Below, piece by piece: positions 11,155-33,112 of a DNA stretch of 33,112 nucleotides. Source of the stretch: an uncultured Clostridia bacterium. GTDB taxonomy: Bacteria > Bacillota > Clostridia > Christensenellales > Borkfalkiaceae. Under the pieces are notes generated by a model. The model was given only the letters and a program-made list of their open reading frames with translations, ran no database searches and was not told where the DNA came from. The position numbers and the translations under genes were made by a program. Positions within the stretch are counted from its first letter, which is position 1. Each line of letters starts with the position of its first letter. The stretch lies in the NCBI GenBank assembly GCA_944372525.1, contig CALVZL010000014.1, positions 1 through 33,112 on the forward strand. The letters run 5' to 3'.

Positions 11155-11172
11155 GAGTGAGGAGGGAAGAGG

Positions 11173-13559: not shown

Positions 13560-13576
13560 AGCCGATCGGAGGGAGT

Positions 13577-14986
13577 ATGTATTTTGCAAGACAGAAGTTT
13601 CTCGTAGCGGGGCTTTCCCGTTCGGGTGTGGCGGCTTCGGAGTTTTTGCTCAGACGCGGTGCCGAACAGGTGTATTGTTACGACGACGTAGAAGAGGGAA
13701 GCGTTGCGCAATCCGCGGCGGAGCTGGAAAAGAAAGGCTGCCGCATCGTACATAAAGAGGAGCTGAAACAGGCGGCGGAAGAGTGCGACGTGCTTGTGCT
13801 GAGTCCCGGGATCCCCATCGATCATCCGCTGCCCGTCTTGTTTCGGCGGGCACGAAAGAGGATCGCAGGGGAAGCGGAACTGGGTGCGCTCTTTCTGCGC
13901 TGCCCCGTCGTGGCGGTGACGGGAACGAACGGAAAGACGACGACGGTGACGATGATCGACGGTATTCTGAAGTCTGCGGGCTTTGACAGCGTTGCCTGCG
14001 GCAACATCGGCAAACCGATTACGGCTTGCTGCGAACGGCTCGGAGAAAACGGAGCCGCCGTTGCGGAGATCTCCTCCTTTCAGCTTGAGACCCTGCTTTC
14101 GCTTCGCCCGCATATTGCCGTCGTGCTCAATGTTTCGGAAGATCACCTCAACCGTCATTATACGATGGAGAACTACGTTCATCTCAAAGCACGGCTGCTT
14201 CGGAACGGGACGGAGAGCGAATACGCGGTGCTCAACTATGACGACGAGATCGTCCGCGGATTTGCGGAAAAGACGAAATCTAAAGTCGTTTGGTTTTCTC
14301 TTCGGGAGCGGACGGAGGGGGGATACCGTGAAAACGGGCGGCTGTGTTTTCGGGGGGAAGAAATTCTCTCCTGTGAGGAATTACCGCTTGAGGGAGAACA
14401 TAATCAGCAGAATGCGCTGGCGGCAATCTGTGCGGCAAAACTCATGGGGGTCGGGAACGAGACCATAGCCGCCGCCCTGAAGACCTTCCGCGGCGTGGAG
14501 CATCGCCTTCAGCCCGTCGGGGAGGTCGGAGGGATCCGTTTTATCGACGACTCCAAGGCGACCAATCCGGACTCTACACTCAAAGCCGTGAGCGGTGTCA
14601 GAGGAGAAAGCGTGCTGCTTCTCGGCGGCAAGGACAAGGGAGAGGATTATGCCGCGCTCTTTGAAGGAATTGCAAATTCCGGAGTCGTGCATGCGGTTCT
14701 GTACGGGGAAAATGCCTTCCGTCTCCTCAGTGCAGCGATGAAACGGGGTTTTCATGCGGTTACGCTCTGCCGCCCCTTCGACGTTGCAGTGCGCGTCGCC
14801 TATCTGACCGCGCGGCCCGGGCAGAACGTTCTGCTCAGTCCCGCTTCGGCAAGTTTCGACAGCTTCCGGAACTATGAGGAACGGGGCGAACGGTTTCGGC
14901 AGTTGCTGGAGATATTCCGTGCGGAGACGGAAAGAGCTGAGACGGAAGAGGAGAAAGAGGAGAAAGAGGCAGCCGATGAAAAATGA
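13577..14986 (+). CDS. murD: UDP-N-acetylmuramoyl-L-alanine-D-glutamate ligase
   Basis: MurD adds D-glutamate to UDP-MurNAc-L-alanine. The 469-residue product starts with a Rossmann-like segment (KFLVAGLSRSGVAAS), carries the ATP loop VTGTNGKTTTVTM (residues 114-126), the block FQLETLLSLRPHIAVVLN and the C-terminal LLGGKDKGEDY and LLSPASASFDSF. The last 20 or so residues are an acidic E/K tail (RAETERAETEEEKEEKE) not needed for the fold. The ATG follows GGAGGGAGT. The end overlaps ftsW by 11 bases. Confidence 0.95.
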   Translation: MYFARQKFLVAGLSRSGVAASEFLLRRGAEQVYCYDDVEEGSVAQSAAELEKKGCRIVHKEELKQAAEECDVLVLSPGIPIDHPLPVLFRRARKRIAGEAELGALFLRCPVVAVTGTNGKTTTVTMIDGILKSAGFDSVACGNIGKPITACCERLGENGAAVAEISSFQLETLLSLRPHIAVVLNVSEDHLNRHYTMENYVHLKARLLRNGTESEYAVLNYDDEIVRGFAEKTKSKVVWFSLRERTEGGYRENGRLCFRGEEILSCEELPLEGEHNQQNALAAICAAKLMGVGNETIAAALKTFRGVEHRLQPVGEVGGIRFIDDSKATNPDSTLKAVSGVRGESVLLLGGKDKGEDYAALFEGIANSGVVHAVLYGENAFRLLSAAMKRGFHAVTLCRPFDVAVRVAYLTARPGQNVLLSPASASFDSFRNYEERGERFRQLLEIFRAETERAETEEEKEEKEAADEK

Positions 14987-16109
14987 GCGGGGAACAGCGC
15001 AGAAACGGGGGCGCGGAGACCTGCTCTTTCTCGGGGCGGTCATCCTGATTGCGGGAGCAGGCGTGCTCTTTGTCTACTCTGCCAGCTCCTATAACGCGCA
15101 GATACAGTACGGAGACGCTCTGTACTTCTTCAAGAAGCAGCTCGCGGGCTTTGCGCTCGGGCTGGTCTGCATGATTTCCGTCTCCTTTCTCGACTGCGAA
15201 AAATTCCGTCGGCTCGGCTTGCCCGTCTTACTTTTCGCTCTCGTCCTGCTTGTGCTTGTCTTTGTCCCGGGATTGGGAAAGACGACGTACGGTGCGACGC
15301 GCTGGATCGTCATCGGACCGCTGTCTGTTCAGCCGTCTGAGCTGGCAAAATACGGACTCATCTTCTTTGCGGCGGGCTATTTTGCCCGCTCTCCTGCGCG
15401 GATGCGGACGTTTCGAGGCATATTGCCCGTTCTTGGGGCGGGACTTTCCGTCTGTGCGCTCGTCATCTTGGAGCCGAACATGTCGGTGACCGTCTGTATC
15501 GGGGCAATTATGCTCGGGCTGCTCTTCCTTGCGGGAACGTCCTTCAAAACCTTTGCGCTCATTTCGCTTCCCGTGCTGGCGGCGATTCCCGCTTTGATTT
15601 TGGCGGAGCCTTATCGGCTGCAGCGGCTTTCGGCTTTTTTGGATCCGTGGGCGTCGCCGAAAGAAGAAGGATATCAGCTCATTCAGTCGCTCTATGCGCT
15701 TGCCAACGGTAATTTTTTCGGGGTCGGATTGTTTCGTTCCCGTCAGAAATACCGCTTTCTTCCCTTTGCGGAGAGCGATTTCATCCTCTCCGTCATTGCG
15801 GAAGAGACAGGGTTTTTCGGAATTCTGCTCTTCTTTGGTCTGGTCGTCTTTCTTCTGGTCCGGGGAGTTCGCATCGCAAAACGCTGCGATTCCTTTTATT
15901 CCTATCTCCTCGTCTGCGGGATCTTGTTCGCCTTTGCGATTCAGACGGCGCTGAACGCGCTCGTCGTCAGCGGCTGCATTCCTCCTACCGGGCTGCCTCT
16001 CCCCCTGGTAAGCGCGGGGAATACGTCGCTTGTGGTGACGATGACGGGCATGGGGATCGTCTATGGGGCGTCAAGGCACAGCGAAAACAAAAAACACATA
16101 AGATGGTAG
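14976..16109 (+). CDS. ftsW: Septal peptidoglycan glycosyltransferase FtsW
   Basis: FtsW is the SEDS polymerase that builds septal glycan strands with FtsI. The 377-residue product has about ten membrane segments and the family blocks FVYSASS, QPSELAKYGLI, ANGNFFGVGLFRSRQKYRFL and AESDFILSVIAEETG, with GLPLPLVSAG near the end. The ATG at 14976 is chosen because MKNERG leads straight into the first helix; a longer reading from 14874 would only add murD sequence in another frame. It could also be called SpoVE or RodA, but its place in the cluster favours FtsW. murG, usually next, is absent. Confidence 0.92.
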   Translation: MKNERGTAQKRGRGDLLFLGAVILIAGAGVLFVYSASSYNAQIQYGDALYFFKKQLAGFALGLVCMISVSFLDCEKFRRLGLPVLLFALVLLVLVFVPGLGKTTYGATRWIVIGPLSVQPSELAKYGLIFFAAGYFARSPARMRTFRGILPVLGAGLSVCALVILEPNMSVTVCIGAIMLGLLFLAGTSFKTFALISLPVLAAIPALILAEPYRLQRLSAFLDPWASPKEEGYQLIQSLYALANGNFFGVGLFRSRQKYRFLPFAESDFILSVIAEETGFFGILLFFGLVVFLLVRGVRIAKRCDSFYSYLLVCGILFAFAIQTALNALVVSGCIPPTGLPLPLVSAGNTSLVVTMTGMGIVYGASRHSENKKHIRW

Positions 16110-16157
16110 TACGAAGAAGGTGCGCGGAGGGTCCTTTTCTGCGCACGGGAGAGACAT

Positions 16158-17414
16158 ATGGAGAAATATATCATCGGCGGGGGGAAGCGGCTGTATGGCA
16201 GCGTGGACGTTGCGTCTGCAAAAAATGCCGTTCTTCCCCTGTTTGCGGCATCAGTCCTGACCGAAAAACGGGTGACCATTCGCGGCGTGCCTGCCATATC
16301 GGATGCGCTCTGTATGGCGCAGATCTTGCGCGAACTGGGAGCGGACGTCAGGTTTCGCGGCGAGGATGTGATCGTCGACAGCGCAAATGCCCATTCTCAC
16401 GAGATTCCGCCGAGCCTGACGCGGGAGCTGCGATCTTCCGTCTTTATGCTCGGTTCGCTGCTCACCCGCTTCGGTTGCGCACGGATCGCCTATCCCGGCG
16501 GATGCGACATCGGACTGAGACCGATTGATCTGCATCTGAATGCGCTCAAGCAGCTCGGCGTCTCGATCAGCGAACAGGGGGGATACATCTTTTGCCGCTG
16601 CGGACGGATCCGAGGCGCGGAGATCTTGCTTGATTTTCCCAGCGTCGGAGCGACGGAGAATATTTTGCTTGCCGCCGTCAAAGCGGAGGGGACGACCGTA
16701 CTTCAGGGAGCGGCGAAAGAACCGGAGATCGTCGATTTGCAGAACTTCCTCAACGCGATGGGAGCACGGGTCTCCGGCGCGGGAGGGGACGTTATTCGGA
16801 TCGAAGGGGTGAAACAGCTCGGCGGAGTGAACTATCGTCCCATCAAAGACCGGATCGAAGCGGGAACCTATCTGATGGCCTGTGCGATCTGCGGCGGCGA
16901 AACGGAAGTGCGGGGCGTGTCGGCAGAAAATATCGGGCTTCTTTTACATAAATTACGCGAAAACGGTTGCAAAATACATACAAAGAATGATAAAATAAGA
17001 ATCGAAAGTGACGGCCGTCTCGTCTGCAATCGAAGGATCGAGACGATGCCTTTCCCCGGCTTTCCGACCGATCTGCAGGCGCAGGCGACTGCGCTCAACT
17101 GCGGTGCGCACGGGAGCGCGCTGATCGTGGAGAATCTCTTCGAAACCCGCTACAAGTACGTCCCGGAATTGCAAAAGATGGGGGCGGACATCGAAGTGAA
17201 GGGGCGCTCCGCGTTGGTGAGGGGCGCGGGAAGGCTGCACGGTGCCTCGCTGGTTGCGGGCGATCTCCGCGGCGGGGCGGCGCTTGTGCTGGCGGCGCTC
17301 GGCGCGGAAGGAGTGTCGGAGGTGCTTGACCTGTCCTATATCGACAGGGGATATGCCGACATGCAGGGAAAACTCAGAAAACTCGGGGCAGAGATCAAGC
17401 GCGTGCGCGTATGA
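16158..17414 (+). CDS. murA: UDP-N-acetylglucosamine 1-carboxyvinyltransferase
   Basis: MurA performs the first committed step of peptidoglycan synthesis, transferring enolpyruvate from PEP to UDP-GlcNAc. The 418-residue product has ASAKNAVLPL near residues 19-28 (the conserved K-N pair) and GGCDIGLRPIDLHL with C116, the residue that reacts with PEP and is the target of fosfomycin. PGFPTDLQAQ contains the conserved aspartate. The cysteine means this copy should be fosfomycin-sensitive by the usual rule. GGGAGA precedes the ATG at 16158. Length is normal, and it is followed by ftsQ after 22 bases. Confidence 0.95.
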   Translation: MEKYIIGGGKRLYGSVDVASAKNAVLPLFAASVLTEKRVTIRGVPAISDALCMAQILRELGADVRFRGEDVIVDSANAHSHEIPPSLTRELRSSVFMLGSLLTRFGCARIAYPGGCDIGLRPIDLHLNALKQLGVSISEQGGYIFCRCGRIRGAEILLDFPSVGATENILLAAVKAEGTTVLQGAAKEPEIVDLQNFLNAMGARVSGAGGDVIRIEGVKQLGGVNYRPIKDRIEAGTYLMACAICGGETEVRGVSAENIGLLLHKLRENGCKIHTKNDKIRIESDGRLVCNRRIETMPFPGFPTDLQAQATALNCGAHGSALIVENLFETRYKYVPELQKMGADIEVKGRSALVRGAGRLHGASLVAGDLRGGAALVLAALGAEGVSEVLDLSYIDRGYADMQGKLRKLGAEIKRVRV

Positions 17415-17436
17415 ACTTTTCCGAGGGGAGATACCG

Positions 17437-18207
17437 ATGAAGAAAAAGGTTTTGACCATCACGGCAGTTGCACTCGTTCTGTTCGTCGCCGTCGTTGCCG
17501 CGGCGCTCAACGCCGTGTTTACGGTCACAAAAGTCGATACCATCTTTTATACTTGCTCTTCTCAAGGGGAGAAAGAAGCGCTCGAATTGCAGGAGAGGCT
17601 CGACGAAGAATTTATCGGGGCGAGCACGACGTTTCTCAAGCTCGACGAGATCGATGCGATGATCGCCGAATATCCCTGTTTCGAGGTTGTTTCTCTGCAG
17701 AAAGAGTTTCCCCGCACCCTTTCGGTCGTCGTCTCGGAGCGGAAGGAACGCTTTGCCGTTCTCCGAGAGAGCGGAATGTATGCGGTGCTGGACGAGGAGG
17801 GCAGGTATCTCTATGAAAGCGACGAAAACGTCAACCGCAGGGGAGGGGAGAACATCCTTCTCTCCGGATTCGAGGTCGTAACGGGAACCGCCGGTGAGGT
17901 TGCAACGGGAAAATATTTTTCCGCGGCGGTCACGCTTTGCGCGGTCTTTTCAAAGACGCTCGACGATGTGCGTGCCAATATTCTTTCCGTGACGTTGGAA
18001 TCCGATTATTTTGAAAATTATTTCAGGATACGGATGCAAGAAGGAGTGAATATTCTCATCTATACTCCGGAAGAGCGGACGGAGGAGAAGGCGCAGGCGG
18101 CGCTCGATCGCTATTGTTCTCTTTCTGTCACGCAGAAACTCTACGGATTTTTCGACGTGATGGAGGATCGTTCGGGCGAAATCAGCGTTAGCGATCACCG
18201 TGCATGA
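17437..18207 (+). CDS. ftsQ: FtsQ/DivIB-like cell division protein
   Basis: This bitopic protein would link early and late divisome parts. The 256-residue product has a short cytoplasmic N terminus, one transmembrane helix (about residues 5-27) and a POTRA-like region. VTKVDTIFYTC, FLKLDEIDAMIAEYPCFEV and FPRTLSVVVSERKERFAVL (about residues 31-110) follow the pattern of FtsQ/DivIB. Sequence conservation is modest, but the position after murA and before ftsA-ftsZ is standard. GAGGGGAG precedes the ATG at 17437. It is the last gene before a terminator. Confidence 0.85.
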   Translation: MKKKVLTITAVALVLFVAVVAAALNAVFTVTKVDTIFYTCSSQGEKEALELQERLDEEFIGASTTFLKLDEIDAMIAEYPCFEVVSLQKEFPRTLSVVVSERKERFAVLRESGMYAVLDEEGRYLYESDENVNRRGGENILLSGFEVVTGTAGEVATGKYFSAAVTLCAVFSKTLDDVRANILSVTLESDYFENYFRIRMQEGVNILIYTPEERTEEKAQAALDRYCSLSVTQKLYGFFDVMEDRSGEISVSDHRA

Positions 18208-18226
18208 AAAAAATGGCGAAATTTGG

Positions 18227-18256
18227 AAAAAGCGCTTTTTTCAAAGCGCTTTTTTT
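18227..18256 (+). terminator. Terminator after ftsQ
   Basis: AAAAAGCGC (18227-18235) pairs with GCGCTTTTT (18246-18254) and is followed by more T residues. It closes the mraZ-to-ftsQ transcript 20 bases after the ftsQ stop, before a new promoter for ftsA. Confidence 0.85.
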
Positions 18257-18288
18257 GCCGTTGCCGAACAGGAAAACAGAATAATCTC

Positions 18289-18317
18289 TTGACAATCCCG
18301 GCGGTTTTTGATATAAT
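18289..18317 (+). promoter_or_regulatory. ftsA-ftsZ promoter
   Basis: TTGACA (18289-18294) and TATAAT (18312-18317) are both exact sigma-A consensus hexamers, separated by 17 bases. It lies 29 bases upstream of the ftsA start codon, directly after a terminator. Confidence 0.92.
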
Positions 18318-18346
18318 CATGAGAGAATACGCAAGAGGAAAAAACA

Positions 18347-19498
18347 ATGGCGGGCAAAAGTGTTGCGGTGTTGGACGTCCGCTCTTCGGAAGTGGCGGTC
18401 TTTGTCGGAGAGAGAGGGGTCAATCATACGTTTGTTTTCAAAGCGAGCAAGACGGAGAAATACAGCGGTTATCAGGACGGCGCTTTCTTCGATGTCTCGG
18501 ATCTTGCCCGCGCGGTGCACAGCGCGCTCGATGCCGTGGAACAGATCTGCGGGGAAAAACAAAAGACGATTTATGTGGGCGTGCCGGGCGAGTTTACGCT
18601 CGTGGAACCCAAAGAACAGGTCGTCGGGTTCCCGAAGAAGATCAAGATTACTTCCAAAGAGCTGAACACATTGTTTGAGAGCGGTCGCAAACCCGTCAAG
18701 GGGTATCGCTTCATGCGTGTGTCGAGCATGATCTATACTACGGCGGACAATCGGCGGGTAGCCAATCCGGTCGGGTTGTATTCTACGGGGCTTTCGGGCG
18801 TGCTCTCTTATTTTTATTGCAGCGACTATTTCGCGCGGACGATCGAAAAGATTTTCGACGGGGCCAAGATCGCTCTTCGGTTTCTTCCTGCGCAGTTTGC
18901 GATGGCAAGTTATCTGATTTCTCCGGAGACGAGAGACGAATATGCTTTGTTCCTCGATGTCGGCTATCTATCTTCCACGATCTGCGTGCTTTTGGGGAAC
19001 GGCGTTCTGTTGCAGCGTACCTTTTGGGCTGGGCAGGGACAAATCGCAGTGCGCTTGATGAAGCGCTTTTCTCTTCCCTATGAGGCTGCCGTTGCAGCGC
19101 TGACCCGATCTAATCTTTATCTCAAGCGGGACGCGCGCGACCGAGAATTTGTCTTCCAGGGCAAAAGCTATGAGATCCCGACGAAGGAATTCATCGACGA
19201 GGTAAAGGCGGGATTGGACGAGCTTTGCGAAGCGGTCGGAGCATTTTTGGAGGAGTGTTCCGGAAAGGAACTGGACAGCAAGCCGCTCTATGTCACGGGG
19301 GAAGGACTGGACGGGATCCGCGGTGCGCTCGAGCATATGTCCAAGCGTTTGAGCTGTGTATGCGAGCAGGTCGCGCCCGATCTTCCCTATTACAATAAAC
19401 CGTCGATGAGTTCGCGGATCGCGCTCATCGATATGGCCTACGAAGACAACCGCCAAAGCGGGTCTTTATATCGATTCTTAAATATTCTCGGAGGTTAA
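18347..19498 (+). CDS. ftsA: Divergent FtsA-like actin-fold protein
   Basis: FtsA tethers FtsZ filaments to the membrane. The 383-residue product lies directly before ftsZ, has the start SVAVLDVRSSEVAVFVGERG (phosphate 1 region) and ends in a short amphipathic-looking tail (SGSLYRFLNILGG) that might bind the membrane. It departs from typical FtsA at the nucleotide motifs. The phosphate 2 loop reads DVGYLSSTI instead of DIGGGTTDI, and the adenosine motif reads VTGEGLDGIRG instead of a TGGGA-like form. It is also shorter than common FtsA (about 420). AGAGGA precedes the ATG. The role is inferred from context and overall pattern; nucleotide binding may be altered. Confidence 0.78.
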   Translation: MAGKSVAVLDVRSSEVAVFVGERGVNHTFVFKASKTEKYSGYQDGAFFDVSDLARAVHSALDAVEQICGEKQKTIYVGVPGEFTLVEPKEQVVGFPKKIKITSKELNTLFESGRKPVKGYRFMRVSSMIYTTADNRRVANPVGLYSTGLSGVLSYFYCSDYFARTIEKIFDGAKIALRFLPAQFAMASYLISPETRDEYALFLDVGYLSSTICVLLGNGVLLQRTFWAGQGQIAVRLMKRFSLPYEAAVAALTRSNLYLKRDARDREFVFQGKSYEIPTKEFIDEVKAGLDELCEAVGAFLEECSGKELDSKPLYVTGEGLDGIRGALEHMSKRLSCVCEQVAPDLPYYNKPSMSSRIALIDMAYEDNRQSGSLYRFLNILGG

Positions 19499-19504
19499 TC
19501 AAGT

Positions 19505-21154
19505 ATGTATAACGACGACATCCCCTATGTGGGAAGAGATAATCTGCCGCCCGAGCGCACGCCTCAGCCCGTCGCGCCCAATCCCGCGGAACAGGAGATG
19601 AACGGCAGGGCGCGGATCAAGGTGATCGGCGTCGGCGGAGCGGGCAACAATGCCGTCAACCGCATGATCGACGCCGGGATCACGAGCGCGGAATATGTTG
19701 CCGTCAACACCGATGCGCAGATCCTTGCGTGCAGCAGGGCGAAGACCAAGATCCAGATCGGTTCTCGTCTTACCAAAGGGCTTGGCGCGGGCGCGGATCC
19801 GGATATCGGCCGTGCGGCTGCCGAGGAGAATAAGGACGATCTTGTCAAAGCGGTGGAAAAAACGGACTTGCTCTTCATCACCGCGGGCATGGGCGGCGGC
19901 ACGGGAACGGGTGCGGCGCCCGTGTTGGCAAAGATTGCGAAAGATCTGAAGATCCTCACCGTTGCGGTCGTGACCGAACCGTTTTCCTTCGAGGGAAAAC
20001 GCAGGATGGACAATACGATCAAGGGAATCGACAATCTGCGCAAGTATGTCGATACGCTGATCATCATTCCCAATGAGAAGATCGGCGACGTCGTTCCGAA
20101 AAATGCGCCGATGGCAGAAGCGCTCCGCGTTGCCGACGAGGTGCTGAAACAGGGAATCCGCGGAATCGCGGATCTGATTGTGACGCCCGCGCTGATCAAT
20201 TTGGATTTTGCGGACGTGAGAGCGGTGCTCAAGGATAAGGGGCTTGCGCATATGGGCGTCGGCGTCGCAAAGGGTGAAAACAGAATTGTGGACGCCGTGC
20301 GGCTTGCAGTCAACTGTCCTTTGCTCGAGACCACGATCGAAGGCGCGACGGGAGTCATCCTCAATGTCGTCGGCGGAAACGATCTGACCTTTGATGAGGT
20401 GAAACTTGCCGCGTCGCTCATTCACAGCGTCGTGGATTATTCGGCAAATATTATTTTCGGTGCCTGCATCGACGAAAATATCAGCGACGAGGTGGAAGTT
20501 ACCGTCATCGCGACCGGTTTTCCCGCCGCAGATAAGACTCGCTCGATCGGAATGCAGCAGGCGGTCCCGCAGTCTGCGCAAAGCGCCCGTCCTGCGGCAG
20601 AGTTCCGTCAGGTCCGTTCCGCGGGGGCGACCGTACAGCCGCAGATGCAGTTTCAGCAGCAGGTCCGTCCGGCGGGAGCCCCCCCTGTACAGCCGCAGAG
20701 AACGATTACGCAGCAGCAGTCTCAGCAGCAGCCGCGCACGCTGTTCGGGAACAATGCTTCATATAATCAGCCGGCAAACAATCCGATGCAGACTTATTCC
20801 GATCCTGCCCAAGGCGGATATCGCGGTTATCAGCAGTCTGCACAGCCTCAGCAGCCTGCGCAGGGCTATTATCCTCCGCAGCAGGGCATGTATAACTCTC
20901 CTCAGCAACAGCCGCAGCAGGGATATTGCAATCGGCCTCAGCAGTCCGCGCAGAACGGATATTACGGCGGAGAGGGCGCTCAGGGCGGCTATGCTCAGCC
21001 GGATTACAGCGCTCAGAAACCGGGGAGACAGTATCCTCCCGCGGTTTCTCCCGACGACGTAGCGGTTGACGACGACGATGAATATGTGTCGGAGAGCCCG
21101 CGCGATCAAAAGCTTCCTCCTTTTGTTCAGAAGCTGCTCGGAAAGAAAAAATAA
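19505..21154 (+). CDS. ftsZ: Cell division GTPase FtsZ with long Q-rich linker
   Basis: FtsZ polymerises into the Z-ring that organises division. The 549-residue product has a 35-residue N-terminal extension, the nucleotide loop GVGGAGNNAVNRM, the tubulin signature GGGTGTG (130-136) and the T7 catalytic loop NLDFADV (232-238). The core ends near residue 345. A linker of about 190 residues follows, rich in Gln, Pro, Tyr and Gly, then a basic C-terminal peptide (DQKLPPFVQKLLGKKK) of the kind that binds FtsA. Typical FtsZ is about 350-400 residues. GGAGG precedes the ATG six bases after the ftsA stop region. Confidence 0.97.
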   Translation: MYNDDIPYVGRDNLPPERTPQPVAPNPAEQEMNGRARIKVIGVGGAGNNAVNRMIDAGITSAEYVAVNTDAQILACSRAKTKIQIGSRLTKGLGAGADPDIGRAAAEENKDDLVKAVEKTDLLFITAGMGGGTGTGAAPVLAKIAKDLKILTVAVVTEPFSFEGKRRMDNTIKGIDNLRKYVDTLIIIPNEKIGDVVPKNAPMAEALRVADEVLKQGIRGIADLIVTPALINLDFADVRAVLKDKGLAHMGVGVAKGENRIVDAVRLAVNCPLLETTIEGATGVILNVVGGNDLTFDEVKLAASLIHSVVDYSANIIFGACIDENISDEVEVTVIATGFPAADKTRSIGMQQAVPQSAQSARPAAEFRQVRSAGATVQPQMQFQQQVRPAGAPPVQPQRTITQQQSQQQPRTLFGNNASYNQPANNPMQTYSDPAQGGYRGYQQSAQPQQPAQGYYPPQQGMYNSPQQQPQQGYCNRPQQSAQNGYYGGEGAQGGYAQPDYSAQKPGRQYPPAVSPDDVAVDDDDEYVSESPRDQKLPPFVQKLLGKKK

Positions 21155-21158
21155 AAGA

Positions 21159-21200
21159 CAGGAAAAAGAGCGCGCCGAAATCGGCGCGCTCTTTTTCCTG
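21159..21200 (+). terminator. Strong terminator after ftsZ
   Basis: A perfect inverted repeat of 20 bp (21159-21178 with 21181-21200), with GC-rich centre GAGCGCGCCG, ends in CTTTTTCCTG. It closes the ftsA-ftsZ unit five bases after the ftsZ stop. Its symmetry means it could also block transcription from the right. Confidence 0.88.
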
Positions 21201-21585
21201 TATCAAACTCCTGCGGATCGTCCGCGGATGCACAGGCAGACTTTCGCAGACCGAGCAAAAAGCGGAGAAGGAAAGGAAACGACAGGAAGGCAAAAAGGAG
21301 GAGAAAGAATTTAACAAAAAAGCAATCAGCAAACAAGAAACAAAAATGAAAAAGGAAGCGAAACAGTTGGAAAAGCAATGATATGCACAAAAAAGCACGT
21401 TTTCGAGAAACAAATAAACGATCGGTCTTCGGGGTCGGAACGGGTGCTCTTGCGTGCATCCGGTAAGCCCGGAGTCAACAACCCGAGACTGAAAAACCAT
21501 CGGCTCAGTCGGCGAAATTTTATTCTGCGGCGGACAAATTTTCTCTTTTGCGTGTAATTTTTTCGGAACGGTCCAAACTGTCGTT
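21201..21585. other. 385-base non-coding stretch before the carboxypeptidase gene
   Basis: No gene is supported here. The first 180 bases are A- and purine-rich. One frame stays open to TGA at 21379-21381 and reads as Lys/Glu-rich, but it has no start codon. From 21421 to about 21512 the sequence becomes GC-rich with two stable stems: CGGGTGC (21441-21447) with GCATCCG (21456-21462), and GACTGA (21487-21492) with TCAGTC (21505-21510). This could be a structured leader for the next gene. No promoter of good quality was found. Confidence 0.4.
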
Positions 21586-22746
21586 ATGAAAGAAATCAGA
21601 AAAGTGTTGTCCGTTTTCGGAATTCTGGCGGTCGGATTGGCGGGCGCTGTGCCGGCGATGCGCGCCGCTGCGGAAACGGAAGAGCAGCCGCAGTGCAAAG
21701 CGGCATATCTTTGTGATTACGGAAGCGGAACGGCTGTCTTTGAAAAAAACGCTTCGCTTCGTCTTCCCGTAGCAAGTATGTGCAAAATCATGACTTTGCT
21801 GCTGAGTTTTGAGGCGATCGGGCGGGGGGAGCTGAGTTATGAAGAGGAAATTCCGATCAGCGAGAATGCCGCAGGCATGGGGGGTTCGCAGGTTTTTCTC
21901 GAAAGCGGACAATCCTATCCCGCGGACAGTTTGCTCAAGAGCATCGCAGTATGTTCGGCAAATGATTCCTGCGTTGCGCTTGCGGAGCGCATATGCGGCT
22001 CCGAATCCCGTTTTGTGGAGCGGATGAACGAACGGGCGAGAGATTTGGGCGCGGATAATACGTTGTTTGCAAATTGTACGGGTTTGCCGAAGGACCCGCA
22101 ATATTCTTGTGCAAAAGACATCGCCGTCATGTTGCGTGCCTTGCTCGCGCATGAAAAATATTATGAGTATGCGCATGTCTGGCTGGAGGATTTCGAACAC
22201 CCCGGCGGAAGAACGACGCAGATGACGAATACCAATCGTCTGATCCGCAGTTACAGTGGCTGCGACGGCGGAAAGACGGGATTTACCAGTCAGGCGGGCT
22301 TTTGCTTGGCCGCGACGGCAAAACGAGGAGCGACAAGGCTGATCTCCGTCGTGATCGGGGCGGAAACTTCCGATGCCCGCTTTCAGGGGGTGAGCGCAAT
22401 GCTGGACGATGGTTTTGCCTGCTATGAGAGCAAGATGCTTGTCCGCGCGGGGGAATGTGTTGCGGAAGTGCCGGTCAGGGGCTCTTCGGCAAAGACGGCG
22501 AAGCTGTGTCCCGAGCGGGAATTGACGATCTTTTGTCGTAAGGGAGAGAGTGGAACCATCGAGACAGAATATATTTTGCCAGAATCGATTATGGCACCGC
22601 TGGAAAAGGGGAGCTGTTGCGGAGAGGCGATTGTCTACCGCGATGGCGTGGAGGTCACTCGCTGCAAGTTGCTTAATCTCGCGGAAATTGAGCGATTTTC
22701 CTGGGGCGATGCGTTTCGAGAGTTGGCAAACGAATGGAATCGCTGA
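21586..22746 (+). CDS. Serine-type D-alanyl-D-alanine carboxypeptidase (DacF-like)
   Basis: The enzyme removes the terminal D-alanine of stem peptides and limits cross-linking. The 386-residue product has a signal peptide (about residues 1-30, ending RAAAET), catalytic motif SMCK (S64, K67), SAND (SxN motif) and KTGF (K230-T231-G232). These are the S11 peptidase marks. The C-terminal third is a beta-rich region typical of PBP5/DacF, ending in an amphipathic-looking stretch. No good ribosome site lies before the ATG at 21586, although the frame and the signal peptide support it. It stands alone between two terminators. Confidence 0.9.
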   Translation: MKEIRKVLSVFGILAVGLAGAVPAMRAAAETEEQPQCKAAYLCDYGSGTAVFEKNASLRLPVASMCKIMTLLLSFEAIGRGELSYEEEIPISENAAGMGGSQVFLESGQSYPADSLLKSIAVCSANDSCVALAERICGSESRFVERMNERARDLGADNTLFANCTGLPKDPQYSCAKDIAVMLRALLAHEKYYEYAHVWLEDFEHPGGRTTQMTNTNRLIRSYSGCDGGKTGFTSQAGFCLAATAKRGATRLISVVIGAETSDARFQGVSAMLDDGFACYESKMLVRAGECVAEVPVRGSSAKTAKLCPERELTIFCRKGESGTIETEYILPESIMAPLEKGSCCGEAIVYRDGVEVTRCKLLNLAEIERFSWGDAFRELANEWNR

Positions 22747-22770
22747 TTTGCATAGTATTATGCTTGAAAT

Positions 22771-22800
22771 AACAGTTCGTGAAAACGAGCTGTTTTCTTT
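22771..22800 (+). terminator. Terminator after the carboxypeptidase gene
   Basis: AACAGTTCG (22771-22779) pairs with CGAGCTGTT (22786-22794), with one G-T pair, and is followed by TTTCTTTTGTTTT. It lies 24 bases after the stop codon. Confidence 0.75.
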
Positions 22801-22815
22801 TGTTTTCCAAATTGC

Positions 22816-22844
22816 TTGCGAATTTTTCCTTGGAATGGTATAAT
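22816..22844 (+). promoter_or_regulatory. lysA promoter
   Basis: TTGCGA (22816-22821) and TATAAT (22839-22844) are separated by 17 bases. The expected transcript start near 22851 decides the lysA start codon downstream. Confidence 0.82.
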
Positions 22845-22879
22845 CATGTGTGAAAGTTTGCTTTATCGCGGAGGACGGC

Positions 22880-24205
22880 ATGAACGAAAGAGAAACGCTG
22901 AAAGTGAATGAAAAGGGCCATTTGGAAATCGGCGGATGCGATTGCGTGGAACTTGCCAAAGAGTTTTCCACACCGCTGTATGTGTTTGACGAGGCGCATA
23001 TCCGCAATATGATGCGCGTTTACCGCGATACGATCCAACGGGAATACGATGGGAACGGCATAGTGCTCTATGCGTCCAAAGCCTTTTCCTGCAAAGCGAT
23101 CTACCGAATTGCCATGCAGGAAAAGATCGGAGTCGATGTCGTTTCGGGCGGGGAGCTCTATACGGCACTGTCCGTCGGATTTCCTGCGGAGCGCATCTAT
23201 CTGCACGGCAACAACAAGCTTCCGCACGAGTTGCGAGAGGCGGTAGAAGCGGGAGTCGGAACGATTGTCGCAGACGCCTATCCTGAGGCGGATCTGCTCG
23301 ATGCGGAAGCGGCGCGGGCAGGAAGGATACAGGAAGTGCTCATTCGCATCAATCCCGGTGTGGAAGCGCATACGCATGCCTATGTTCAGACGGCGACGCC
23401 GGATTCCAAATTCGGATTTTCGGTTGCGGACGGCGCGGCGGAGCGGTTTTGCGCGTATATATTGTCCAAGAAGCATCTCCGCCTGAAGGGATTTCATTGT
23501 CACATCGGTTCGCAGATCTTTGAAAAACAGTCCTTTGTGATCGCGGCAGAAAAAGTCATGCGGTTTTGTGCGGAGATCAAACAGAAACTTTCTTTTGAAG
23601 CGGAAACGATCAATTTGGGCGGGGGATTCGGGATCTGGTATGCCGAGGGCGACAAAAAAATCTCTGCGGAAGGGTATGGGGAATACCTTTCGGCACTCAT
23701 TGATACGGTCAAGGAAGAATGTGAGCGCTGCGGTCTGAAGCGGCCTTATCTCATCGTGGAGCCGGGGCGTTCGATCGTGGGGGAGGCCGGGATTACGCTC
23801 TATACGGTCGGAGCGATCAAGGACATTCCCGGGATTCGGAAATATGTCTCCGTCGACGGAGGGATGTTCGACAATCCCCGTTATTGCCTGTACCAATCCA
23901 AATATACCGCTCTGCTGGCAAATCGTGCGGCGGAGCTTCCCTGCGAACGGGTTGCGATTGCGGGAAAATGCTGCGAGAGCGGTGATCTCATCGGAGTCGA
24001 CATGAATCTTCCTGCGGCAAAATGGGGCGATCTGCTCGCCGTGCTTTCCACCGGAGCCTACAATTATTCGATGGCGAGCAACTATAACAGAAATGCGGTC
24101 CCGCCGGCAGTGCTGGTCTGTGACGGAAAGGCAGAGTATATTGTAAAGCCTCAGTCTTACGAAGACATTGTGAGAAACGATGTGATCCCGACGCGGCTCA
24201 AGTGA
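22880..24205 (+). CDS. lysA: Diaminopimelate decarboxylase
   Basis: LysA removes CO2 from meso-diaminopimelate to give lysine, the last step of lysine synthesis. The 441-residue PLP enzyme shows YASKAF with the PLP-binding K67, HIGSQIF, the glycine loop NLGGGFGIWY, EPGRSIVGEAG, and CCESGD with a catalytic cysteine region. The ATG at 22880 is chosen: GGAGG lies at 22870-22874 and the predicted transcript begins near 22851. A GTG at 22850 would sit at or before the transcript start. It is monocistronic, with its own promoter and terminator. Confidence 0.95.
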   Translation: MNERETLKVNEKGHLEIGGCDCVELAKEFSTPLYVFDEAHIRNMMRVYRDTIQREYDGNGIVLYASKAFSCKAIYRIAMQEKIGVDVVSGGELYTALSVGFPAERIYLHGNNKLPHELREAVEAGVGTIVADAYPEADLLDAEAARAGRIQEVLIRINPGVEAHTHAYVQTATPDSKFGFSVADGAAERFCAYILSKKHLRLKGFHCHIGSQIFEKQSFVIAAEKVMRFCAEIKQKLSFEAETINLGGGFGIWYAEGDKKISAEGYGEYLSALIDTVKEECERCGLKRPYLIVEPGRSIVGEAGITLYTVGAIKDIPGIRKYVSVDGGMFDNPRYCLYQSKYTALLANRAAELPCERVAIAGKCCESGDLIGVDMNLPAAKWGDLLAVLSTGAYNYSMASNYNRNAVPPAVLVCDGKAEYIVKPQSYEDIVRNDVIPTRLK

Positions 24206-24215
24206 CGTTGGGGAG

Positions 24216-24262
24216 AACATTCCGCGCTCTGCTGCACGGAATGTTTTTTCTTTTTTTCATTG
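24216..24262 (+). terminator. Terminator after lysA
   Basis: AACATTCCG (24216-24224) pairs with CGGAATGTT (24237-24245), and the stem is followed by a long T-rich tract to about 24258. It starts 11 bases after the lysA stop. Confidence 0.85.
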
Positions 24263-24269
24263 CCATCGG

Positions 24270-24298
24270 TTGCTTTTTTGCGGAGAATCCGATATAAT
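24270..24298 (+). promoter_or_regulatory. Promoter of the M50 protease-scpA-scpB unit
   Basis: TTGCTT (24270-24275) and TATAAT (24293-24298) are 17 bases apart. The ATG of the next gene is only 12 bases after the -10 element, so the leader would be very short. Confidence 0.75.
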
Positions 24299-24309
24299 GG
24301 ATCAAGGTT

Positions 24310-24993
24310 ATGCAATATTTTATTTCTCTTTTGGCAAGTTTTTTTGCTGTACTCGTCGTGCTGACTTTGCATGAGTTTTCGCACGCCTTTGTCGCAGTTC
24401 GCTGCGGTGATCCGACGCCGAAATGGAATCACCGCCTAACGCTCAATCCCCTGCGGCATTGTGATCCGCTCGGGCTGCTTTGCTTTGTTTTTGTCAGATT
24501 CGGCTGGGCAAAGCCGGTTCCCGTCAATCCGTACAACTTTAAGAAACGGCGTTTGGGAATGGGGCTGACTGCCGTCGCGGGGATCGCCATGAATTATCTC
24601 ACGGCGTTTTTGTTTTATCCGCTTTTTATGCTGGTCTTGACGCGGGTCAACAGTTCTTCTGCCGGATTTTGGTTCCTGTATTATCTTACTCAGGATCTGT
24701 ACGTCTACAGCATATGTTTCTGCGTGTTTAATCTTCTGCCGTTTTATCCGCTCGACGGATTTCGGATCGTGGAGGCATGCAGCAAACATCAAGGAAAGAT
24801 ATATCGATTCCTGCGTCAATACGGGTACTACGTTTTGCTCTTTCTCATTGTAGAGAGTTTCATTTGCAGTACGTTTGTCCGTTTCGGCGTGACGGAGATG
24901 GCGATGTTCGATCTTCTCGGCTGGGTCATGGAGTTTGCGACGGGCATTGTCGGTTGGCCGATTTCTGCGCTTTGGGGGCTTGTGCCGTGGTAA
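24310..24993 (+). CDS. Site-2 protease family (M50) membrane metalloprotease
   Basis: This is a small intramembrane zinc protease. The 227-residue product has HEFSH (residues 21-25, the HExxH zinc motif) in the first helix and NLLPFYPLDGFR (D149 is the third metal ligand) in a later one, with about five hydrophobic segments. Genes of this type often stand directly before scpA in Clostridia. Its substrate is not known. The ATG at 24310 has only a weak AAGG just upstream, and the promoter leaves a leader of four or five bases. It overlaps scpA by seven bases. Confidence 0.9.
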   Translation: MQYFISLLASFFAVLVVLTLHEFSHAFVAVRCGDPTPKWNHRLTLNPLRHCDPLGLLCFVFVRFGWAKPVPVNPYNFKKRRLGMGLTAVAGIAMNYLTAFLFYPLFMLVLTRVNSSSAGFWFLYYLTQDLYVYSICFCVFNLLPFYPLDGFRIVEACSKHQGKIYRFLRQYGYYVLLFLIVESFICSTFVRFGVTEMAMFDLLGWVMEFATGIVGWPISALWGLVPW

Positions 24994-25781
24994 ACCGCGA
25001 TCGATTTGATTCCGTCGTCGACTATACGACGGTGCTTTCCAATTTTGAAGGTCCGCTGGATCTGCTGCTCTATCTCATCAACCGCAACGAAATCGAGATC
25101 AAAGATGTGTTTGTCTCGCAGGTGACTGAGCAGTTTCTCTCTTACATGAGGGGGCTGCCTCGGCTGGATGTGGACCGAATGAGCGATTATCTGAATATTG
25201 CGGCAACTATTTTGAAGATCAAGGCGCAGAGTCTCGTTCCCGGAATGGAAGAGGACCCGGAGCAGGAGGAGATCGAGGAGGAAAAAGCGGGGCTTATCCG
25301 CGCGCTGGAAGAATTTCGTCTCATCAAAGAGGAGACGAAAAAACTTCGGGAGATGGAGACCATCGGATATTTCTTCAAGGAGCCGGATAAAAACGTCGGG
25401 GAGGTCAAAACGGTATTTTCGACGGATCATCTCACGTTGGACGGCTTGATTTCTGCGCTGTCTTCTCTCATGGTCAAGCGGGCGCAGCAGCATCGCGGTG
25501 AGGACGTGCGGGAAATCCCGCGCGACGAATATACGGTGGAAGAGAAGGTGCATCATATTCTGCACGCATTCGGCGAGGCGAAGTCGCTGGAGTTCGGACA
25601 GCTGTTCGACGGGAATTATACGAGATCGGAGATCATTACGACGTTTCAGGCCATATTGGAGTTGCTCAAATATCAATATCTTCAGGTCAGACAGGACGGG
25701 ATGTTTCAAGAGATCACGCTCTCGCTGAATCCGGACCGGAAAGAGGAGGAATTCGTTGGAGAACTTGACGAATATCGTTGA
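24987..25781 (+). CDS. scpA: Segregation and condensation protein A
   Basis: ScpA is the kleisin that bridges the two heads of SMC in the condensin complex. The 264-residue product has the N-terminal block FEGPLDLLLYLINRNEIEI with DVFVSQVTEQFLSYM, the acidic central linker EEDPEQEEIEEEKAGL and the C-terminal winged-helix region (EEKVHHILHAF to VRQDGMFQEI). A GTG start at 24987 is chosen. It is in frame, preceded by TTTGGGGGC, and overlaps the stop of the protease gene by seven bases. Any longer reading would consist of protease-gene sequence in another frame. It overlaps scpB by 26 bases. Confidence 0.93.
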   Translation: MVNRDRFDSVVDYTTVLSNFEGPLDLLLYLINRNEIEIKDVFVSQVTEQFLSYMRGLPRLDVDRMSDYLNIAATILKIKAQSLVPGMEEDPEQEEIEEEKAGLIRALEEFRLIKEETKKLREMETIGYFFKEPDKNVGEVKTVFSTDHLTLDGLISALSSLMVKRAQQHRGEDVREIPRDEYTVEEKVHHILHAFGEAKSLEFGQLFDGNYTRSEIITTFQAILELLKYQYLQVRQDGMFQEITLSLNPDRKEEEFVGELDEYR

Positions 25782-26469
25782 GGCGGTGCTGTTCGCCTCG
25801 GGGAAAGGGGTGTCCCTTTCGGAAATTGCAGAAAAACTCGGAGTGAGCACGGAAGAGGTGAAGCAGTCTCTTTCCGAGCTCAAACGGCGCTACGCGGAAT
25901 CGGGGGGAATTCAGCTGTTGCAATTTAATGCGAAAGCGCAGCTCTGTACGAATCCGCTTTATAAAAAAGAAGTCGAAGCCGTTCTCAATCCGGTGCGCGA
26001 GAAGGAATTGACGCGCATCGTTTTGGAGTGTGCTGCGATTATTGCCTATAAACAGCCGATCACCAAAGCGGAGATTGAGTTACTGCGCGGGCTGAACAGC
26101 GACTATGCCGTACATGTGCTTCTGGAACTCGGACTGATCTGCCCCTGCGGAAGGAAGGATGCCGTCGGTCGTCCCATTCTCTATGCGACGACCGATGAAT
26201 TCCTCAAACGCTTTAAGCTGGCTTCCTTGGAAGAGCTCCCCGATTACGATGCGCTGATGGCGGCGATCAACCGTTCGGAGGAAGAGCGCGACAGCTATCT
26301 CTATGCGCGGGAGGAATATACGGAGCAGACGGCAGAGGAGAGAAAGTCAGCCGTCGGAACGCCGCCGCCCGTTGCGGAAGAGAAGGGAGAGGAGGAATTT
26401 TCCGGGGGATACGAGATTCCGGATTTCCTGCGCGGATTGGACGATGCGGATATCGTAAAGATCGGCTGA
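25756..26469 (+). CDS. scpB: Segregation and condensation protein B
   Basis: ScpB dimers bind ScpA in the SMC complex. The 237-residue product has two winged-helix parts: IVEAVLFASGKGVSLSEIAE with LGVSTEEVKQSLSEL, then IIAYKQPITKAEIELLRG with CGRKDAVGRPILYATTDEF. A TTG start at 25756 is supported by GGAGG at 25745-25749, six bases upstream. The C-terminal 60 residues are acidic and poorly conserved. The gene overlaps the end of scpA, which fits coupled synthesis of both subunits. Confidence 0.93.
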   Translation: MENLTNIVEAVLFASGKGVSLSEIAEKLGVSTEEVKQSLSELKRRYAESGGIQLLQFNAKAQLCTNPLYKKEVEAVLNPVREKELTRIVLECAAIIAYKQPITKAEIELLRGLNSDYAVHVLLELGLICPCGRKDAVGRPILYATTDEFLKRFKLASLEELPDYDALMAAINRSEEERDSYLYAREEYTEQTAEERKSAVGTPPPVAEEKGEEEFSGGYEIPDFLRGLDDADIVKIG

Positions 26470-30639: not shown

Positions 30640-30666
30640 CCCCCCTCCCGCTAAGCGGGAGGGGGG
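30640..30666. repeat. Right-end hairpin of the IS200-type element, possible terminator of the facing gene
   Basis: Six C then TCCCGC (30640-30651) pairs perfectly with GCGGGA then six G (30655-30666), loop TAA. IS200 right ends have such a GC-rich hairpin. It also lies 22 bases past the stop of the minus-strand gene and could end its transcript, although only TTCATTTT follows on that strand. Confidence 0.7.
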
Positions 30667-30688: not shown

Positions 30689-33112
30689 TTAATCTTTCTG
30701 CGGTCTGATCTGCAGATAGTAGCAGATGCAAAACACGAGAAGATTGAAGAAATAGACAATCGGAATGACGACGTAAGTCGCGAGATCGCCTGCTTTGGAG
30801 AAATCGATCTGCGCGGCAAGTGCGACAATCAGAATGACGATAACGCAGAGCGCATAGGTGACGATGGCGTTGACCAGGAGATTGCCCGTCTGCCGCAAGG
30901 CGCGTTCGCCGTAATGGTTGAGATAGGCCAATCCCGTTACGAGCAGAAGCGCGAGTCCGGTTCCCCAGATGAAATAGGGATAGAACCGGGGCAGTCCGAG
31001 GCGGTTGAGGAATCCGAGCGTGAGACTTCCTTCTGCGATGCAGATCAAAAAGACGACAATTGCACTCAAAAAGAGCGCTCTTCCCTTGTGCACAAGGTTC
31101 ACGGACAGCGTGTTGTTTGTCGTCTTAGACCTTCCTCCGGACGTTGTGATTCGAATTCCGTCTTGTGCGGCGCGGGTCTCCAAATCGTAGAAATCAACGC
31201 CGTCCAGCGCTTTTGCCGCCACGGGAGCGACAGCTTTTTTGGCGGGAGCGGGGGAGACGGGCTGTGAAACGGGAGCGGCGGTGCGCACGGCGGATTGCGG
31301 AAGGGGAGTTTTTTCCTTCTTCCCGGCGGCAGGCTCCTGTTTCAGCGTATTAGAGTAAAGTTTGCGTATGACGGAACGGTATTCTCTGTTTCGTTCCGGA
31401 TTGCCTGTCTGTGCGGCGGTTGCATTGGATTCGGTGCGTGCCGAGGGGGAATAATAGGTGTATTCGTTTTGAGAGGGTCGCTCTTCCGCAGGAGGCGTAT
31501 TGACGAGGTTGAGATAGTTCTGATGGATCATCTGCTGCTCGCGCTGACGGAAGAGCACTTCATCCTCTTCGCGAATGCGCTGTTCTTGTTCGGCAAGCTC
31601 CCGTTCATGGAGAGAGCGGAAGCGTTCTTCCTGATCGCGCAGCATTTTCTCATAACGGGCGCGTTCTTCGATGAAGGGCTCCATCTCCAGAATGCGCGCG
31701 TTTTGCTGTTCTTTTTCCGCATTCAGCGCCATGGCGTGCGCACGTTCTTCGTTGTGTTTCAGACGTTCTTCTTCCAGACGCGCTTCTTCTTTGCGTTTTG
31801 CCTCTTCTTCGGCGCGGCGTGTCTCTTCTTCCAGTCTTGCCTGTTCCTCGGCGCGGCGCGCTTCCTCTTCGGCGCGGCGCGCTTCTTCCTCGGCACGGCG
31901 ATGCTCCTCATATTCGCGCAGCTGCTGTTCATAGCGCGCGCGTGCGATCTCTTCCGCCTCTCGGCGAATGCGCATTTCTTCCGCGATCCGCGCTTCTTCG
32001 CGGGCACGGTATTCCGCACGGAGCCGTTCCGTTTCAGCTTTTTCCGTCTCTTCTGCCAGAATCCGTTTGCGGCGTTCTTCCTCCTCCTGCAAAGCGTGTT
32101 CGCGTTGGAGAAGTTCTTCTTCCCGACGAAGGCGCTGTGCTTCTTCGTTGCGGAGCGCTTCCTCTTTCGCACGCAACTCTTCTTCGCGGCGCGCTTGGGC
32201 CTCTTCTATTTTGGCAAATTCCTCTTCAAGCGCGGCACGTCGGTCGGCAAGTTCCTGTTCCCGATTGTCGGGGAGCGTTTCCGCCGATTCTAAGACACTG
32301 TCTTCGGCTGCGGTCGCAGCGGCGTTTTCCTCTTCTTCCGGCTCTTCCTCAAAGGAAAAAGGTGCTCTGAAATATTGCGGGGCGGGAGAATCAGCGTGCA
32401 TGTCGTCTTCAAGATCAAAATATTCTTCTTTCGGCTCTTCTCTTCCCGGGACGCGCGAGGTCGATTGTTTGAGCACGCGCATGTCAACGGGAGAAGGCGG
32501 AGACTGGTTGAAATCGAAGTCTCTGTCGGAGATCAGACTGTCGATCACGGTACGGGAATATTCCCATTCCGACTGATTGCGTTCGGCGATCTCTTTTCCC
32601 GCATCGGTGAGCGAGAAATATTTTCTTCTGCCGCCGCTGACCGAACCGCCCCAATAGGAAGTGACATAGCCTTCCCGTTCAAGGCGTTTGAGAGCGCTGT
32701 ACAGAGAGGGTTGTTTGAGCTGATATTGTTTGTGGCTTTTTCGCTCGATCTCGGCAATGATCGCATAGCCGTACTTGTCGCCGTCGTAGAGAGAGCGCAG
32801 GATGATGGTGTTGATGTGTCCGCGAATCAGGTCGGCGCTGATCGTCCGTTCGCCGGCTTGTCCCTGCGTTTCGTCGCGTTCCTCGGCGGGTTCGTCCTCG
32901 GCGGGCTCATCCTCGGCGGGCTCGTCCTCGGCGGGCTCGTCCTCGGCGGGCTCGTTCTCCGTGGGTTCGTCCTCGGCGGGCTCGTCCTCGGCGGGCTCGT
33001 TCTCCGTGGGCTCGTCCTCGGCGGGCTCGTTCTCCGTGGGTTCGTCCTCGGCGGGCTCGTCCTCCGTGGGTTCGTCCTCGGCGGGCTTTTCGGAAATCGT
33101 CTCGTATGAGAC
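30689..33112 (-). CDS. PadR-type winged-helix protein with long E/R-rich helix and C-terminal membrane domain (5' end outside window)
   Basis: One frame runs open from the window edge to TAA at 30689, giving at least 807 residues with no in-frame start codon before the DNA-binding part. In order: about 14 acidic pentapeptides (AEDEP/TENEP/TEDEP, residues 10-78); a PadR winged helix (about 95-175: LIRGHINTIILRSLYDGDKY, QPSLYSALKRLEREGYVT, GGRRKYFSLTDAGKEI); an acidic linker; a charged helix of some 250 residues (about 285-533) with heptads such as RRAEEEA; a Pro/Ala-rich linker; and about four transmembrane helices (680-800). Known PadR proteins are 100-200 residues and soluble. A membrane-anchored regulator or scaffold is an inference. 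The gene was not recognised as a named family. Confidence 0.85.
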   Translation of the reverse strand, partial: VSYETISEKPAEDEPTEDEPAEDEPTENEPAEDEPTENEPAEDEPAEDEPTENEPAEDEPAEDEPAEDEPAEDEPAEERDETQGQAGERTISADLIRGHINTIILRSLYDGDKYGYAIIAEIERKSHKQYQLKQPSLYSALKRLEREGYVTSYWGGSVSGGRRKYFSLTDAGKEIAERNQSEWEYSRTVIDSLISDRDFDFNQSPPSPVDMRVLKQSTSRVPGREEPKEEYFDLEDDMHADSPAPQYFRAPFSFEEEPEEEENAAATAAEDSVLESAETLPDNREQELADRRAALEEEFAKIEEAQARREEELRAKEEALRNEEAQRLRREEELLQREHALQEEEERRKRILAEETEKAETERLRAEYRAREEARIAEEMRIRREAEEIARARYEQQLREYEEHRRAEEEARRAEEEARRAEEQARLEEETRRAEEEAKRKEEARLEEERLKHNEERAHAMALNAEKEQQNARILEMEPFIEERARYEKMLRDQEERFRSLHERELAEQEQRIREEDEVLFRQREQQMIHQNYLNLVNTPPAEERPSQNEYTYYSPSARTESNATAAQTGNPERNREYRSVIRKLYSNTLKQEPAAGKKEKTPLPQSAVRTAAPVSQPVSPAPAKKAVAPVAAKALDGVDFYDLETRAAQDGIRITTSGGRSKTTNNTLSVNLVHKGRALFLSAIVVFLICIAEGSLTLGFLNRLGLPRFYPYFIWGTGLALLLVTGLAYLNHYGERALRQTGNLLVNAIVTYALCVIVILIVALAAQIDFSKAGDLATYVVIPIVYFFNLLVFCICYYLQIRPQKD
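31803..31910 (-). repeat. 21-nt heptad repeats in the charged helix
   Basis: Near-identical 21-base units coding RRAEEEA occur several times in a row (the core GGCGCGGCG recurs at about 31811, 31850, 31871 and, with one change, 31892). They make part of the long E/R-rich helix and look like products of local duplication. Confidence 0.75.
32881..33085 (-). repeat. 15-bp tandem repeat coding acidic-proline pentapeptides
   Basis: Thirteen full units and one partial unit of 15 bases follow each other without gaps (plus-strand form CCTCGGCGGGCTCGT, with a TCTCCGTGGGCTCGT variant). In the minus-strand gene they encode AEDEP or TENEP/TEDEP. All changes keep the frame. The array ends near the window edge. 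Confidence 0.93.

Follow-up and report, generated by a model that had tools for sequence, protein, structure and literature searches.

We found that a gene at the edge of a contig from an uncultured gut bacterium of the Clostridia encodes a PadR winged-helix domain, a long charged stretch, and four predicted membrane helices in one polypeptide, and that a 31-base element, TTATGTCWGACATAGTACTATG, which in most relatives closely precedes the −35 box of this gene, recurs in roughly 10 to 30 copies per genome, with a reversed control giving almost none. In two genomes with long contigs, comparison of site positions with base composition shows that these copies surround the replication terminus and that their direction switches where the GC skew switches. 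We consider it probable (roughly 0.63) that the product is an integral-membrane terminus-binding protein, which would resemble RTP and Tus in the logic of its sites while being unrelated to either.

The DNA analyzed (the window) is the entire contig C14 (33,112 bases) of an incomplete genome. The features discussed below, by window position, are as follows.

30689..33112, minus strand: PadR-coil-membrane gene, represented here by its final 807 codons and the stop codon (open frame; the 5′ end continues on contig C22)
32880..33087, minus strand: 15-base tandem repeat coding for an acidic (A/T)E(D/N)EP tail, in a region where the contigs break off
32513..32842, minus strand: PadR winged-helix domain (Pfam match at 32588-32803)
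32678..32716, minus strand: presumed DNA-recognition helix region, KQPSLYSALKRLE
31478..32269, minus strand: charged E/R/A-rich stretch, a presumed helical stalk (from composition)
31499..31552, minus strand: conserved motif FRQREQQMIHQNYLNLVN at the stalk end
31133..31201, minus strand: conserved pre-membrane motif GVDFYDLETRAAQDGIRITTSGG
30704..31096, minus strand: four predicted membrane helices (from hydrophobic windows)
30640..30666, minus strand: strong hairpin, rich in G+C, after the stop codon, a likely terminator (−29 kcal/mol, z −4.2)
22746..22776, minus strand: candidate copy of the terminus element, weak at 21.9 bits, located at the stop codon of the gene for a D-Ala-D-Ala carboxypeptidase
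9421-26469: genes for division and the cell wall (PBP transpeptidase, Mur ligase, FtsW/RodA, and FtsZ), on the same contig as the fusion

The frame at 30689-33112 on the minus strand stays open for 807 aa and runs off the contig end, where it adjoins the 15-base repeat; the latter is present in 13.9 copies and is translated as the acidic tail that the sequence-only reading had placed ahead of the PadR domain. Extension past base 33112, which that reading proposed, located the 5′ end of the gene on contig C22, with an ATG start codon at base 340 of the C22 locus (L003, minus strand) and, upstream of it, AGGAGG and a consensus promoter, TTGACA-17-TATAAT. C22 overlaps C14 by 163 bases at 93%, and the overlapping ends (L003 1-163 and window 32950-33112) lie in the acidic repeat, with units that differ. 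As the contigs break within the repeat and the overlap reaches only 93%, the precise count of acidic repeats is uncertain; it may also differ among strains. Between its −35 and −10 boxes, the window's own promoter has a perfect palindrome, which was considered as an operator and dropped because it is not common to the relatives.

From the N to the C terminus, the protein comprises the acidic tail, the PadR domain, a linker, the charged stretch, another linker, in which conserved motifs occur, and four hydrophobic windows; this bears out the original description of a PadR domain, an E/R-rich stretch, and about four membrane helices in one frame. Pfam PadR (PF03551) matches residues 104 to 175 (E = 2.2e-18; 66 bits against a cutoff of 27), and a profile of the domain matches solved PadR chains, with 9qbc as the best (E = 1.2e-37); the KQPSLYSALKRLE region is what we take to be the DNA-recognition helix. 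Residues 282 to 478 are devoid of Pro and Gly, and residues 281 to 545 consist of 30% E, 19% R, and 14% A, a composition that we read as a presumed continuous helix; the FRQREQQMIHQNYLNLVN motif at its end is a possible partner-binding site. The four hydrophobic windows fall within residues 673 to 803. The profile searches for each domain that had been suggested turned out unevenly: PadR was clear over the cutoff, whereas the membrane part gave only weak, scattered Pfam matches (DUF1129 weakly in 3 of 63, and HAAS absent from among them) and chance-level matches to solved structures. A Pfam scan of the protein recovered neither a motor ATPase domain nor a match to RTP, and PADLOC returned only a weak match, to the PadR stretch.

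The fusion is genuine and conserved across families of the order. We fetched 78 loci (40 from the genus, 17 from other genera of the family, and 21 from other families), and in 74 of these PadR and membrane matches occur in a single frame of 414 to 1206 aa; the exceptions are two contig edges (L104 and L142), one locus with a membrane match only (L140), and one whose membrane match is too weak for the script (L141). The sequence-only reading had proposed a search for the same order of domains in relatives and would have been refuted by halves that are always separate genes; the 74 one-frame loci contradict such separation and show that the fusion is no join artifact. Outside the genus, the membrane part was the only criterion for choosing the 38 loci, and PadR is in frame in 35 of these. 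All 61 genomes of the genus that were searched have a match (weak in G050 and G058, partial at a contig edge in G002), and of 396 genomes of the order, 52 gave a match with the membrane part alone as the query. Conservation is highest in the PadR part (mean column identity of 63% over 31 rows versus 33% for the membrane part over 63 rows), while the stalk is highly variable in length and some shorter members lack a long charged stretch. Candidatus Gallimonas and Candidatus Coproplasma, both Clostridia, are the closest relatives that have a name; our genera g1 and g2, we infer, correspond to these, probably so for Gallimonas.

As for the neighborhood, the division gene region that had seemed suggestive is indeed present in the window, but among 52 relative loci none of the 14 most frequent listed neighbor families looks division-like (first residues, judged by eye). 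The same segment, 9421-26469, also holds genes for D-Ala-D-Ala carboxypeptidase and ScpA and an ScpB-like frame (ScpB judged by eye). In L065-L121, a putative ABC transporter operon of three genes (function judged by eye) lies upstream of the fusion on the same strand, and its members were found in 33 to 39 of 52 loci.

The upstream regions of relatives share the element TTATGTCWGACATAGTACT ahead of the −35 box. It consists of a strong palindrome, ATGTCWGACAT, flanked on one side by another, weaker dyad (CATAGTACTATG), and its core, ATGT-N3-ACAT, differs from the canonical PadR operator, ATGT-N8-ACAT, as given in parts of two papers (PMC4517056, PMC5050560). In 34 of the 40 genus rows, a script places the end of the core 7 to 9 bases ahead of the −35 box, using a scoring matrix trained mostly on the same loci; one of the 34, L081, scores only 14 bits. 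Two further rows (L080 and L095) have the element placed alike by eye, three (L068, L073, and L077) have their best copy ~93 bases upstream, and L086 has a miscalled start. In genus g2, the element stands 17 to 19 bases upstream of the −35 box in 10 of 10 rows, and a g3 promoter (L121) contains a reversed 24-bit match. No strongly conserved flanks were seen around the copies beyond ~31 bases. The f3 loci among L122-L139 have a different promoter inverted repeat (ACTATTATA ... TATAATAGT), which straddles the −35 box and showed no recurrence in the flanks examined; in most f3 rows, LYNQLKRLE replaces LYSALKRLE in the recognition region.

A search pattern allowing up to 3 mismatches, counted on both strands of what is a near-palindrome, gave 17 to 45 matches in 13 genomes of the genus, against 0 to 2 for the reversed control and 0 to 2 in eight genomes from other families. 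In G250, all 11 pattern matches lie at 549 to 818 kb of an 824-kb contig, i.e., within 270 kb, with none elsewhere in the 1.7-Mb genome; a matrix scan of 400 kb adds one weak copy apart from these, at 474 kb. Ten genomes have a dnaA contig without the element among the matches listed. For the skew analysis we fetched contig C1 of G007 in full and 400 kb of contig C1 of G250. In both, the GC skew and the gene strand switch in the terminus sense, near 115 kb in G007 (where the skew is small and noisy) and near 596 kb in G250. The cumulative skew peaks, at 115,000 and 595,664, fall between the innermost opposed sites, at 109,289 and 129,741 in G007 and at 592,163 and 604,388 in G250. The orientation of matrix sites matches the replichore in 24 of 25 cases in G007 (binomial P = 8e-7) and in 15 of 17 in G250 (P = 1e-3), and one block shuffle of each gave 0 and 1 matrix matches, respectively. 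A search for dif with a B. subtilis sequence as the query gave best matches no better than those to shuffles.

The polarity extends to further genomes. In 49 named loci outside L065-L121 (80 minus 24 on contigs of the latter and minus 7 short ones), 89 of 92 sites agree with the skew; within L065-L121, agreement with the local skew is found for 36 of 37 nonpromoter sites and 51 of 56 promoter-region sites. With a 3-kb skew, 12 of 14 sites agree in the window's own genome and 20 of 20 in G004, but only 13 of 21 in G010. The orientation of the candidate copy in the window, at 22746..22776, fits the window's GC skew. As judged from match lists alone, with no skew comparison, the direction switches once in two contigs (G312 C1 and G239 C4) and is mixed in three (G039 C1, G143 C5, and G143 C12). 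Transcription of the fusion gene itself runs head-on to replication (54 of 56 loci in one set, 48 of 49 in the other), and hence the direction of the sites tracks the replichore rather than the gene strand.

By crude gene calls, 16 of the 25 sites of G007 and 8 of the 17 of G250 are intergenic (17.5% and 13.7% for random positions). In a second tally, 9 of 25 and 9 of 17 fall within genes, 5 and 1 in gaps toward which two genes converge, 10 and 4 no more than 250 bases ahead of a gene start (8% and 7% for random positions), and 1 and 3 farther ahead of one. Conservation is not peculiar to the promoter site: for at least 6 of the 25 sites of G007, G250 has a site at the homologous position.

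Of the two functions that the sequence-only reading offered, a tie between DNA and the membrane is favored because the promoter element recurs as polar terminus sites, many of them inside genes. The other, a membrane-tethered transcription factor that senses an envelope signal and whose regulon the sites would mark, appears improbable to us. PadR is a repressor family, part of PMC11237479 proposes HAAS-PadR pairs as sensors of membrane signals, and the excess of sites close upstream of gene starts is what a regulon would give; but nothing that we found points to an envelope signal, no HAAS-like gene was seen by eye among the recurrent neighbors, site direction tracks the replichore, and the pattern matches of G250 are restricted to one region. 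The many sites inside genes or between convergent ends speak against a plain regulon. That the element is functionless, either a repeat or what remains of a mobile element that inserts preferentially near the terminus, would account for short, multicopy sequences in a biased location, but is very improbable given that the flanks are not strongly conserved beyond ~31 bases, that positions are common to different genera, that placement at one promoter is fixed, and that the copies are polar.

Weightier, if still unlikely, is the possibility that the sites belong to an unknown soluble terminator and that the PadR-membrane gene is one of several carrying a promoter site by chance. The positional conservation of other sites fits this explanation, as does the departure of the core from the canonical PadR operator, and two genomes have sites with the fusion undetected. 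In one of these, G370 (genus g6, 97% complete; 23 pattern matches), no fusion was found by the membrane part or in the stretches around sites (L306-L315), and only 7 of 15 sites agree with the local GC skew, i.e., they are not polar; in the other, G361 (300 contigs), the sites are polar in 9 of 9 cases. Against a soluble terminator stands the fixed distance from the −35 box in the 34 of 40 genus rows and 10 of 10 g2 rows. Within the family, genera with the element at the fusion gene (g1, g2, g4, and g5) carry sites genome-wide (7 to 45 matches where the 3-mismatch pattern was run), whereas sites are almost gone, with 1 to 3 matches each, from four genomes of g3 (G102, G343, and G396) and g7 (G405), of which G102 has no fusion by the membrane-part search and the other three have a diverged PadR. 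An independent palindrome beside the fusion of family f29 likewise recurs genome-wide: in G089, the element ahead of the fusion is TTGCATAGTACTATGCAAA, which has CATAGTACTATG in common, and with this palindrome as the query we obtained 25+26 matches, against 0+0 for the control and 0 to 2 in seven other genomes. These palindromes (GCATAGTACTATGC; L287-L305) are often paired ~27 bases apart, at about two dozen places on nine contigs; judged by eye, they show no polarity under the strong/weak rule, and a second f29 genome (G152) has just 1+1 matches. Finally, none of the 396 genomes of the order has an RTP (PF02334) match over the cutoff, with the B. subtilis positive control detected; matches below the cutoff occur in 3 of the 396, all in other families.

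A terminus-binding membrane protein may be set beside several known systems. The RTP-Ter system of B. subtilis, in which RTP is a small, soluble winged-helix protein, likewise has two-part polar sites flanking the terminus and a site in the promoter of its own gene, but here PadR is joined to a long stalk and four membrane helices, and fork arrest is proposed by analogy only. Tus-Ter of E. coli, with a soluble protein of another fold, is comparable in its polar sites around the terminus and the copy in its own promoter, where autoregulation would apply here too. MatP, a soluble ribbon-helix-helix protein, has about twenty matS sites limited to the Ter macrodomain, a confinement like that in G250 (11 of 11 pattern matches, with the one weaker matrix match outside); matS is nonpolar, unlike the present sites, and the protein here is a PadR. 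FtsK, also a membrane protein, combines four helices and a long linker with a winged helix, which reads polar KOPS (8-base and very frequent) that point toward the terminus; the layout of our protein resembles that of a motorless FtsK, but with the membrane part C terminal and no motor ATPase domain found. RacA and Noc, peripheral membrane proteins with a DNA-binding head, a coil or membrane link, and dispersed sites, differ from this integral membrane protein in that their sites are not terminus centered. HAAS-PadR pairs also associate PadR with a multipass membrane part, but PadR is a standalone protein there, according to a part of PMC11237479, and is fused here, with no HAAS-like gene seen by eye in the 14 listed neighbor families.

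Taken feature by feature, polar sites that switch at the terminus are found in G007 and G250 and not in G370; a site in the gene's own promoter is found in the genus and g2 rows counted above, where PadR would be the protein that binds it; and homology to RTP is lacking. Of what defines a PadR regulator, the winged helix is present and the ATGT-N8-ACAT operator and small soluble form are not. The protein thus has a PadR domain yet is no ordinary PadR regulator, and it belongs to neither RTP-Ter nor FtsK.

We propose that PadR dimers would bind the polar 31-base sites, that binding at the protein's own promoter site would provide autoregulation, and that the stalk and membrane helices would keep the DNA of the terminus close to the membrane. 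A fork from the origin reaches the weak side of a site first, and a fork leaving the terminus reaches the strong side first. Parts of PMC10331603 describe the tus and rtp promoters as each containing a ter site and being autoregulated, Tus as binding as a monomer, and, for RTP, a fork that reaches the strong B site first as blocked and one that reaches the A site first as passing. By analogy with RTP, the array might then act as a trap that admits forks and does not release them. Tentatively, and at somewhat less than even odds, this could be a third, independently evolved terminus system, membrane-embedded and motorless and widespread in one order of uncultured Clostridia from the gut. It would both trap forks and fasten the terminus to the membrane, thereby linking the completion of replication to the membrane or to the site of division. 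Among the matches listed in literature searches, none linked PadR to the replication terminus or described a new Clostridia fork trap or a PadR fused or membrane anchored in this manner; tying the terminus to the membrane in this way would be an undescribed arrangement.

To our knowledge, Tus and RTP are the only established fork-trap proteins, and both are soluble; why bacteria retain fork traps is debated. If our reading is true, polar terminus sites arose again with an unrelated, membrane-anchored protein and are physically linked to the envelope, and one could test directly whether termination, segregation, or division is the purpose of such sites. PadR proteins, known for drug and stress responses, would then gain a role in the chromosome.
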